DNA from: Planctomycetota bacterium | GTDB lineage: Bacteria > Planctomycetota > Planctomycetia > Gemmatales > Gemmataceae | Reading direction: 5' to 3' | Length of the DNA stretch: 64,000 nt | Assembly (NCBI GenBank): GCA_016191165.1 | Contig: JACPPF010000047.1 | Coordinates: forward strand, 1 to 64,000 | In this document: positions 5,281 through 38,819 of the stretch, one piece after another | How the letters are laid out: each line of letters opens with the position of its first letter | How positions within the stretch are numbered: the stretch's first letter is position 1 | Translations under genes and position numbers: made by a program | Notes under the pieces: model-generated | What the model saw: the letters and a program-made list of their open reading frames with translations, nothing else | Told to the model about the DNA's origin: nothing | The model's database searches: none

Positions 5281-5722
5281 GGCCAACCTCCGATTCAAAC
5301 AACATCCCACGGGATCCACACCCATATATGTGGGTTTCCGGCGCGGTTTTCGTACATCAATTTTCAAATTGGCGAAATTCGATGGATGTAAAGGCCTGGT
5401 TTAACTCCTATTGCTGCGCTTGCCCCCCGTCGATTTGATTGAATCTTTTTCAGTCAACGTTCCAGTTGTTTGAAAAAGCGAATTCATTTTACTCTTTAAA
5501 TCATGACGCGACTCGAATGGTTCATGGGCGGTCGGGGTATGGCATTCCCCTCACCCGGCTCCCTACCGAGCTCGGCTCGTTACGCGAATTGCGCCACCCC
5601 GGAGTAAGCCAGGCTGCAATGTCAGTTGTTCTGCCACCCCCGTCTTGTGAGAAGTCCTCGAAAAAAACGCTGTAACATCATGCTCAGTTATCGGTTATGC
5701 CTGGAGGGGGACTTCTCACTTC

Positions 5723-5862
5723 GGCCTGGTTCAAGTGAGGGTCACAGCGAGCCGCCGGGCTCGTCCCGGCGGTGCATTCCGATTCGCCTTGGTTCACCGC
5801 CGGGACAAGCCCGGCGGCTCGCTGATTGTTTGTTACCCTAAAATCGATGGATTTGAACCAGG
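5723..5862. repeat. MITE-like palindromic element, family A, copy 1
   Basis: About 140 bp. The ends are inverted repeats (GGCCTGGTTCAA at the left, TTGAACCAGGC at the right). Inside is a strong palindrome built on GCGAGCCGCCGGG, TCCCGGCGGTG and their complements. The element at 15968-16108 is nearly the same sequence in the opposite orientation. Shorter or degraded copies lie at 13650-13754 and 23606-23692. Outside the termini ACTTCTCA and TGAGAAGT extend the inverted repeat further. Confidence 0.85.
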
Positions 5863-5982
5863 CTGAGAAGTCATCAAAAAAAACGGCGCAACCGTTTTTT
5901 CCACAATCAGTTGCGGCACACATACGACAATTCACTTATTCCCCTGGTGTCGGCGGTGCATTTCGCGAATCGGGGCCTGGCA

Positions 5983-6099
5983 ACCCGGCTCGTCAAGCGG
6001 AGGGATACCAGCCCCACGCGCCGGCGTAGGGGGGTGGGCGGCCTCCCAAAACCCCCAGCTTGCGCTGGGGGCTGGCCAAGTGGTTTTCGACAAACGGTA
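5983..6099. repeat. Palindromic element, family B, copy 1
   Basis: The element carries CTCGTCAAGCGG at one side and TCGACAAACGGTAA at the other. Inside are ACCAGCCCCACGCG, CCTCCCAAAACCCC and a hairpin of the GCTTGCGCTGGGGGCTGG type. The copy at 28222-28340 shares the same order of blocks and has better terminal inverted repeats. Confidence 0.75.
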
Positions 6100-13649: not shown

Positions 13650-13754
13650 GGTGAATGTCACGGCGAGCCGCCGGGATTGTCCCGGCGGTGCATTCGGGTG
13701 AAACGGGGTTCACCGCCGGGACAAGCCCGGCGGCTCGCTGATCCCGGTTACAAA
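13650..13754. repeat. Family A element, copy 2 (shortened)
   Basis: This copy has the same internal palindrome as the elements at 5723 and 15968 (GCGAGCCGCCGGG, TCCCGGCGGTG, CACCGCCGGGACAAGCCCGGCGGCTCGC) but lacks the outer GGTTCAA ends. It ends immediately before the GGAGG ribosome site of the glmM-type gene, so it lies in that gene's leader. Confidence 0.8.
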
Positions 13755-15808: not shown

Positions 15809-16160
15809 GGTTTGACGCCCCTGGCGTGAACGAAGCGATTTGAGGATACCATAGCGGGAAGAAGCTCATACGGGAATACTTCGCCGTGAGCGCGAAGCCG
15901 GGATATCCTTGCTATCCGTTGACAGCCCGGCTAGAATGGGGTAGAAGGTAAGTTAGCGAGATTGTGGGTCTGGTTCAAATCCATCGGGTTTACGGTAACA
16001 AACAATCCGCGAGCCGCCGGGTTTGTCCCGGCGGTGAACCAAGGCGGGTCGGGATGCACCGCCGGGACAAGCCCGGCGGCTCGCCGTGACCCTCACTTGA
16101 ACGAGGCCAGATTGTGGAACGAATAACCTGTCGAGCACATTCAAAATAAAGGAGACGTCC
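15809..16160. other. Divergent intergenic region carrying a family A insertion
   Basis: This 352-base region lies between divergently transcribed genes. Most of its right half is the element at 15968-16108. Nothing else was recognised apart from the AGGAG ribosome site just before 16161. Confidence 0.6.
15968..16108. repeat. MITE-like element, family A, copy 3, with target-site duplication
   Basis: About 141 bp, the reverse-complement orientation of the copy at 5723 and of almost the same length. Its ends are imperfect inverted repeats (GTCTGGTTCAA and TTGAACGAGGCC). It is flanked by the 9-bp direct repeat AGATTGTGG at 15959-15967 and 16109-16117, as expected for transposition. It has no coding capacity of its own. 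Confidence 0.85.
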
Positions 16161-16898
16161 ATGCGTTACGAAATGGCTCCGCTGGCGATTGAGTCCGATC
16201 GCAGCGAACGGGCCGCGTTCATTCGACGGACCTACGGGCATCTCGCCATCGCGGTGCTGGCGTTTGTCGCGCTGGAGGCGGCCATCTTCGGCGTGCTGCG
16301 CCCGCTGACGGATGGCGGCTTCGACCGGGCGATGTTCACCATGTTTCAGGGCCGGTTTTCCTGGCTCATCGTCATGCTGGCTTTCATGGGCGTCAGCTAT
16401 CTGGCCCGTTACTGGGCGTTCAACGGCGGCTCCGCCGCGCTTCAGTATGCAGGTCTGAGTTTGTACGTCGTCGCCGAGGCGTTGATTTTCGTGCCGATCC
16501 TCTACGTCGCGATGTATCTGATTCCATCGGCGCCAGATCGTCAGTTCGATTTGGTGGGCCAGGCAGGAATTCTGACGCTGTGCCTGTTCGCGGGATTGAC
16601 CGCCGTGGTGTTCATCACGGGTAAGGACTTTTCCTTTATCGGGCCGATCCTGTCGATTGCCTTCTTCGTCGCGCTGGGCGTCATCATCTGCGCGATCCTG
16701 TTTGGGTTCTCACTTGGCCTGTGGTTCTCGCTGGCGATGATCGTGCTGGCGGCAGGTTCGATCCTGTACAACACCTCCGGCATCATGCACGAGTTCCGCA
16801 CGGATCAACACGTCGCGGCCTCGCTGATCCTGTTCGCGTCCGTGGCGATGTTGTTCTACTACATCCTGCTGGCGTTGATGCAGAGCCGGCGCAGTTAA
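16161..16898 (+). CDS. Bax inhibitor-1/YccA-family membrane protein
   Basis: 245 residues with seven hydrophobic segments, the usual number for the Bax inhibitor-1 (TMBIM/YccA) family. The first helix begins at RRTYGHLAIAVLAFVALEAAI, and the C-terminal half has the family pattern ILYNTSGIMHEF near the last two helices. Family members are pH-sensitive calcium-leak channels or interact with membrane proteases. An AGGAG site six bases before the ATG supports the start. A strong terminator follows, so the gene is probably a single transcription unit. Confidence 0.85.
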   Translation: MRYEMAPLAIESDRSERAAFIRRTYGHLAIAVLAFVALEAAIFGVLRPLTDGGFDRAMFTMFQGRFSWLIVMLAFMGVSYLARYWAFNGGSAALQYAGLSLYVVAEALIFVPILYVAMYLIPSAPDRQFDLVGQAGILTLCLFAGLTAVVFITGKDFSFIGPILSIAFFVALGVIICAILFGFSLGLWFSLAMIVLAAGSILYNTSGIMHEFRTDQHVAASLILFASVAMLFYYILLALMQSRRS

Positions 16899-38736: not shown

Positions 38737-38746
38737 GTCAAGTTTG

Positions 38747-38819
38747 CATACTAGCCCGAAGCGTTAGCGAGGTTTTCCGTTGCAAGCGATCCCTCGCTTA
38801 CGCTTCGGGCTAGTATGCG
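38747..38819. repeat. Palindrome, family F (ACTAGCCCGAAGCGT)
   Basis: The arms GCATACTAGCCCGAAGCG and CGCTTCGGGCTAGTATGC are perfectly complementary and continue as AGCGAGG/CCTCGCT, with a loop of about 18 bases. It lies between the small prkA-yeaH genes and yeaH. Confidence 0.9.

Follow-up and report, generated by a model that had tools for sequence, protein, structure and literature searches.

The window, by which we mean the whole 64,000-nucleotide stretch analyzed here, carries at 15967-16108 a MITE of 142 bp that is very probably served by a DDE-type transposase. On this reading its parent insertion sequence (IS), 1.7-1.8 kb long, is found in relatives of the host, its interior is REP-like, and it has landed behind the promoter of a Bax1-I family gene.

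Structure of the element at 15967-16108

The element and its flanks comprise the following features.

15959-15966: target-site duplication, left copy, 8 bp, AGATTGTG
15967-16108, plus strand: MITE copy, 142 bp
15967-15978, plus strand: left terminal inverted repeat (TIR), GGTCTGGTTCAA, family consensus GGCCTGGTTCAA
15994-15999, plus strand: inner motif GGTAAC, 15 bases inside the left end
16009-16036, plus strand: palindrome arm 1, itself a hairpin CCGCCGGG-N5-CCCGGCGG, REP-like
16057-16084, plus strand: palindrome arm 2
16086-16091, minus strand: inner motif GGTCAC (GTGACC on the plus strand), 5 bases inside the right end
16097-16108, minus strand: right TIR, GGCCTCGTTCAA
16109-16116: target-site duplication, right copy, 8 bp, AGATTGTG

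The original prediction had described a gene-less element of 141 bp with a 9-bp duplication, imperfect inverted ends and a large interior palindrome. The direct repeats are indeed present, but they span 8 bp, and the element measures 142 bp. The ninth base that had been counted, a G, opens the element itself on the left, whereas on the right it is simply flanking sequence. The imperfect ends and the palindrome were described correctly. The latter consists of two 28-nt arms, 96% complementary and separated by a 20-nt spacer, with each arm forming a hairpin of its own. The folded strand reaches -86.7 kcal/mol (z = -7.7), a value as low as which was seen in none of 200 shuffles. As expected for a MITE, the element is short and has no coding capacity, its interior being the palindrome. 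Rfam at gathering scores gave no match in the 64-kb window.

Two further copies lie in the window.

5723-5864, minus strand: second copy, 142 bp, inverted, without target-site duplication
13651-13742, minus strand: third copy, palindrome core kept, ends decayed

The copy at 5723 had been announced as inverted, near-identical and 140 bp long. It is real and inverted, but it is 142 bp long and its identity to the element at 15967-16108 is 92% over 139 bp. Its flanks, CTCACTTC and GAGAAGTC, are mismatched at five of eight positions and thus form no duplication. This copy sits between two pieces of a separate repeat with ends GTGAGAAGTCC and GGACTTCTCAC and an A-rich interior, found at 5643-5720 and 5861-5900. 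The separate repeat is nested with the MITEs and is also contained in copies L012, L014, L021, L071 and L074 of the 235-bp family described below. A second REP-like palindrome family (ACCAGCCC / ACTAGCCC...) occurs in the window at 6007, 20715, 22649, 28245 and 38750-38814.

The MITE family across the host genome

Collecting all copies genome-wide and defining their termini had been proposed along with the original prediction. In the host genome (7.2 Mb in 183 contigs), the 142-bp MITE occurs at least 50 times, each copy having flanks of its own. A similarity search returned 147 first-look candidates, 40 of which were scored, and the exact ends GGCCTGGTTCAA occur 90 times, versus 3 times for a reversed-letter control. 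From the loci retrieved, 74 TIR pairs were assembled; 50 of them, with 50 distinct flanks, fall into the 138-150 bp class (A-size). Duplications were counted in the A-size pairs and in pairs of 225-240 bp (B-size), leaving out the 19 pairs of other sizes, some of which are chance or cross-element pairs.

Perfect 8-bp duplications border 19 of the 50 A-size copies, a further 17 have one mismatch and 14 have at least two. Duplications with 0-1 mismatch therefore accompany 36 of 50 copies, versus 10 of 2,450 (0.4%) mismatched pairings of left and right flanks. Family-wide, the duplications keep to an 8-bp register, and a 9-bp length was rejected. The target has an A/T-rich center and G/C at its edges, with a symmetry that is imposed by the pooling of both strands. 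The TIR is 12 bp long, and GGCCTGGTTCAA is the consensus at both ends in 44 aligned 142-bp copies; because copies were found by similarity or by exact TIR, this conservation is inflated and decayed copies are under-counted. The median pairwise difference among copies is 11%. In a group around L004, copies differ by 2-5 bases, the 5723 copy by 2. The closest copies thus still differ at 2 of 142 bases, which gives no evidence of present-day movement.

The same ends also delimit a second MITE family of about 235 bp, with another interior and the same spacing of the inner motifs; three of its five pairs have perfect duplications. Both families obey one rule: 5 bases separate a GGTNAC motif from one end, and 15 bases separate such a motif from the other. 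One member of the 235-bp family, at L063:1291-1611, has the perfect duplication GAATTCCA and owes its length of 321 bp to an internal insertion with another palindrome in it (GTAGACCTCACGC...). At L014:1-427 (C128) and L012:1501-1885 (C165), MITE copies stand head to tail with the same 8 bases between them (GTCTTGGG/GCCTTGGG; GACTATTC three times), as if one copy had inserted into the duplication of another or the arrays had originated from an end-to-end circle.

Two places in the host genome were considered and rejected as sources of an autonomous element. A TIR at C69:1-163 suggested an IS end there, but the sequence belongs to another repeat or IS, whose end (97-137) recurs elsewhere, beside a MITE end. 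On C44, two TIRs enclose 1,396 bp of ordinary genes, with no recognizable transposase among them. The element end TTGACTCATGCGCTATGAGTTTTTTGGATTAAGTAACCTA was observed at C69:1-140, C67:1-140, on C70 and in at least 11 other places (L141-L157); on C69 an ORF ends ahead of it and a MITE end borders it.

A probable parent insertion sequence in related genomes

A search for a transposase gene with the same ends had likewise been suggested, and such a gene was found in relatives and not in the host assembly. Using the pattern GGCSTGGTTCAA-N15-GGTAAC with one mismatch allowed, matches were obtained in 27 of 397 genomes; its reversed-letter control matched once each in six. Several of the matches in relatives are MITEs with unrelated interiors and 8-bp duplications. 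Among eight same-ended pairs of 150-219 bp, seven (L182, L184, L186, L190, L192, L193 and L195) have a duplication with 0-1 mismatch, the exception being L209. The cargo of L184, from genome G017, is a palindrome related to the ACCAGCCC / ACTAGCCC family of the window. In G006, a genome of the same genus, L187:644-1533 is an 890-bp element with the same ends and a 7/8 duplication (GAGAAATA/GAGAAATC). It was dismissed as a transposase carrier, since it holds a small XRE-like HTH gene (1080-1319) instead, and in appearance it is a mobile insertion cassette belonging to the family of the IS described next.

Two pattern matches in the single-contig genome G047 are ends of an IS. One copy of it, 1,796 bp long, is flanked on both sides by TGGAAGTC, and an IS of 1,733 bp in G038 is flanked on both sides by GCTTTTTC; both are perfect 8-bp duplications. 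The partner transposon of the MITEs is thus 1.7-1.8 kb long in relatives and has the same 12-bp ends and the same asymmetric GGTNAC motifs. The gene of the G047 copy encodes a protein of 518 aa. This transposase is present in 12 of the 397 genomes, and eight of these 12 are among the 27 pattern-positive ones (Fisher p = 6.5e-8), counting G131, whose pattern match may be due to chance.

We then compared the surroundings of 19 transposase loci. Two of them (L245 and L246), distant homologues at 25-26% identity, have no such ends and were kept apart from the 17 close ones. Ends were scanned over 600 bp with up to three mismatches, and a locus was testable where contig and gene reach the end. The downstream end (TIR + N15 + GGTNAC) was present at 14 of 14 testable loci and the upstream end (TIR + N5 + GGTNAC) at 10 of 14, versus 2/380 and 1/380, respectively, in a shuffled control. 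Counted as misses were L256, whose upstream end lies 672 bp away and hence beyond the scanned range, and L216, in which the spacing is 4 bases. Therefore, ends and inner motifs travel with the transposase across phyla. A perfect duplication was seen in only two of the eight ISs for which both ends and both flanks were available (L204, L205, L239, L240, L258, L267, L270 and L268, the last read over the origin of its record). The IS at L216, with its looser upstream end, has no duplication either.

Metagenome-assembled genomes (MAGs) that bear the transposase are labeled Planctomyces, Planctomycetota, Planctomycetaceae, Verrucomicrobia and Candidatus Nealsonbacteria, labels and bins that may be wrong. 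The transposase is further encoded on plasmids of Acaryochloris, Burkholderia latens, Caballeronia and Leptolyngbya. Among 72,556 plasmid records, 14 match it, and in three the match extends over 80% or more of the query. Viral contigs gave 67 pattern matches, with no relative among them, and phage records gave none. In the four plasmid records inspected, the gene is annotated "hypothetical protein", so that genome annotation probably overlooks such ISs and the MITEs that go with them. No match to the transposase was obtained in the host assembly, a draft of 183 contigs and 95% completeness for which three of ten first-look candidates were scored, nor in the six congeners of the host. We infer a past source copy in the host lineage.

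Affinity of the transposase

The transposase of about 518 aa has no confident family match in Pfam or NCBIfam. Five of ten members match the NCBIfam IS256 model NF033543 at E ≤ 1, the best of them, one in ten, at E = 1.6e-4 and far under the 150-bit cut-off. Weak matches to Pfam Transposase_mut (0.094) and to a PHROG transposase (0.018) fall in the same region of one member. A profile search of the PDB likewise gave weak matches only; 6xg8, a Mutator-family transposase, was found at E = 0.93 with A1 as query and was not recovered with A4. The AlphaFold2 model, at a mean pLDDT of 43.1, is too poor for recognizing an RNase H fold with helical insertion, as in the Mutator/IS256 superfamily. In an alignment of seven proteins, including the two distant ones, D171, D225, D246xxH249 and E448 are invariant and presumably catalytic. 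The D(2)H element lies 21 residues after the second D, and 222 residues separate that D from the E.

For Mutator-like prokaryotic transposases (p-MULT), Guerillot et al. (PMC3942029) give as a signature D, D and E with a C/D(2)H 11-19 residues after the second D and an insert of 99-138 aa. Compared with that description, the present system is similar in its 8-bp duplications, in ends that start with G (a terminal C on the other strand), in a weakly HTH-like N-terminus and in a D-D-E triad whose second D and E enclose a D(2)H. It differs in the distance of about 222 residues from the second D to the E, in the D(2)H placed 21 residues past the second D, in the lack of an NCBIfam transposase match above cut-off and in its two asymmetric GGTNAC motifs. 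We therefore take the transposase to operate like a Mutator/IS256 enzyme but, because the spacings do not fit, assign it to none of the five p-MULT families. With ISCth4 and the IS256 family (PMC7780238), it shares a DDE with a C/DxxH motif, a subterminal motif and A/T-rich 8-bp duplications, but its IS256 model score sets it apart. We tentatively place the protein near the Mutator/IS256 group on the strength of these sequence features.

The REP-like core

The hairpin GCGAGCCGCCGGG-CTTGT-CCCGGCGG also exists in relatives without MITE ends, alone or within other palindromes, e.g., in G006 and G042. At E ≤ 0.001 the element matches 18 of 149 genomes (G000 included), and the matches listed for the other 17 genomes cover mostly the core. 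G017, in turn, has a MITE in which these ends surround another palindrome, of the type AGCCCGAAGCG..., which in the window stands alone at 38746-38818. A REP-like sequence captured by transposon ends would account for this composite make-up. REPs and REPINs (PMC3733652) are inverted pairs of small G+C-rich palindromes, mostly intergenic. The core resembles them in this respect and differs in being bounded by transposon ends and target duplications, and nothing seen in the copies points to a tyrosine transposase.

Of 36 copies with at least one exact TIR, taken from the 44 aligned ones, 33 without a flipped core were used to compare divergence. It amounts to 4.4% in the core arms versus 10.8% in the rest of the element (Wilcoxon p = 3e-5). 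The likeness of the arms may be caused by selection on the hairpin or by repair between the arms. Changes between the arms fall into seven cells with a paired double change, seven with an unpaired double change and 84 with a single change; covariation thus gives no proof of an RNA role. In three of the 44 aligned copies (L055, L063 at 1691-1832, and L069), the spacer between the arms is inverted relative to the ends.

Insertion sites and the Bax1-I locus

The element lies between a promoter and a gene.

15909-15937, plus strand: sigma-70-like promoter TTGCTA-17-TAGAAT, upstream of the element, aligned with sister-species orthologues
16161-16898, plus strand: Bax1-I family gene; the element lies in its presumed 5' leader

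The promoter-like block is conserved, reading TTGCTATCCGTTGACA...TAGAAT here, with TACAAT in G006 and TATAAT in G002. Upstream of the Bax1-I orthologues in the sister species G006, G002, G005 and G003 there is no element. Once the element and one duplication are subtracted, TTGACA and the start codon are 93 bases apart, compared with 76 in G006 and 92 in G002. The -10 hexamer ends at 15937 and the element starts 30 positions further downstream, at 15967, so that it probably falls into the leader of the Bax1-I transcript and is probably transcribed there as a long hairpin. No T-tract terminator is present at the site.

For the joined flanks of other copies, uninterrupted paralogous sites were found in repeats elsewhere in the genome (L095 versus L023, 64/82 bases; L028 versus L155, 44/50). 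Of the empty sites named beforehand as a sign of mobility, uninterrupted paralogous and orthologous ones were recovered, whereas the intergenic DNA of the sister species has diverged too far to show the exact site with a single AGATTGTG.

Discussion

The proposal that this is a MITE moved by a transposase encoded elsewhere is borne out by at least 50 copies, by duplications at 36 of 50 of them, by uninterrupted sites and by an IS in relatives that shares its ends. Mobilization would occur in trans by DDE chemistry: a DDE-type transposase would bind the 12-bp ends together with the GGTNAC motifs located 5 and 15 bases further inside and insert the element into A/T-centered 8-bp targets, which would thereby be duplicated. 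The enzyme would stem from the IS of about 1.7-1.8 kb seen intact in relatives, which is tentatively assigned to a distant branch of the Mutator/IS256 superfamily. Inside the MITE lies no IS sequence but an inverted pair of REP-like hairpins of the kind also found alone in related genomes, and the copy studied here came to rest just downstream of a conserved promoter.

Could the palindrome itself be the mobile unit, i.e., a REP/REPIN-type repeat copied by a tyrosine (RAYT/Y1) transposase with the terminal repeats as incidental flanks? The core is an inverted hairpin pair, its hairpin occurs in G006 and G042 without the ends, and its arms diverge less than the rest of the copies. However, the repeating unit of this genome is delimited by defined 12-bp ends and flanked by 8-bp target duplications, and such duplications are the mark of a DDE-type reaction and not of Y1 transposases. 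The same ends moreover enclose unrelated interiors, and by eye no GTAG/GGAG tag is present at the hairpin foot. We regard this explanation as very unlikely. Still harder to sustain is a stationary regulatory or terminator hairpin spread by recombination, with the direct repeats arising by chance. The very stable fold between promoter and gene would suit such a role, but the repeats are far more frequent among the copies than the 0.4% of mismatched pairings, orthologous sites lack the element, and a T-tract is missing. Duplications and empty sites already contradict it, leaving it a negligible probability.

A MITE of another, named IS family (ISL3, IS1595 or an IS5/IS903 type with 8-9 bp duplications) that escaped notice in the assembly would agree with the ends and the duplications, as ends starting with G and duplications of 8-9 bp are common to several IS families. 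The genome does contain five DDE_Tnp_1 (IS4/IS5) matches, but none of these loci is bounded by the present ends, and for ISL3 and IS1595 transposases it gave no match at all, so that all three were discarded as the source. Precisely these ends and inner motifs do accompany a transposase, one that gives no match above cut-off to the models of those families. This origin is accordingly highly improbable, and a MITE served by the DDE-type transposase of the IS in relatives remains the preferred reading.

As a class, MITEs, among them Nezha, NEMIS and MITEAba12 (compare PMC3733652), are 70-300 bp long, have TIRs, lack coding capacity, produce target duplications and occur in many intergenic copies, all of which applies here. 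Unlike those, the present element has as its interior a REP-like hairpin pair that also exists independently, and its parent IS lies outside the named families as far as Pfam and NCBIfam models show. A literature search with the exact TIR string brought up unrelated papers only, and among the papers listed for planctomycete MITEs and for ISs and MITEs of Acaryochloris none deals with this element. New are the correction of the duplication to 8 bp, a parent IS and the rule for its inner motifs, the wide range over which that IS occurs unannotated, and a cargo that is REP-like.

With somewhat less than even confidence, we suggest that the parent IS represents an unnamed Mutator-like lineage outside p-MULT 1-5, present in Planctomycetes, Verrucomicrobia, Cyanobacteria and Burkholderiales and annotated as hypothetical on plasmids. 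Its ends might have captured REP-like palindromes repeatedly (GAGCCGCCGGG here, GAAGCGTCAGCGAGG in G017), making DDE-mobile elements that insert into leaders.

An orphan repeat family is thus linked to a transposase gene that the four plasmid records list as a "hypothetical protein". The inner-motif rule, GGTNAC at 5 and 15 bases, offers a simple search pattern for further members, and enclosure by the ends of a DDE-type transposon provides one way for REP-like palindromes to spread.
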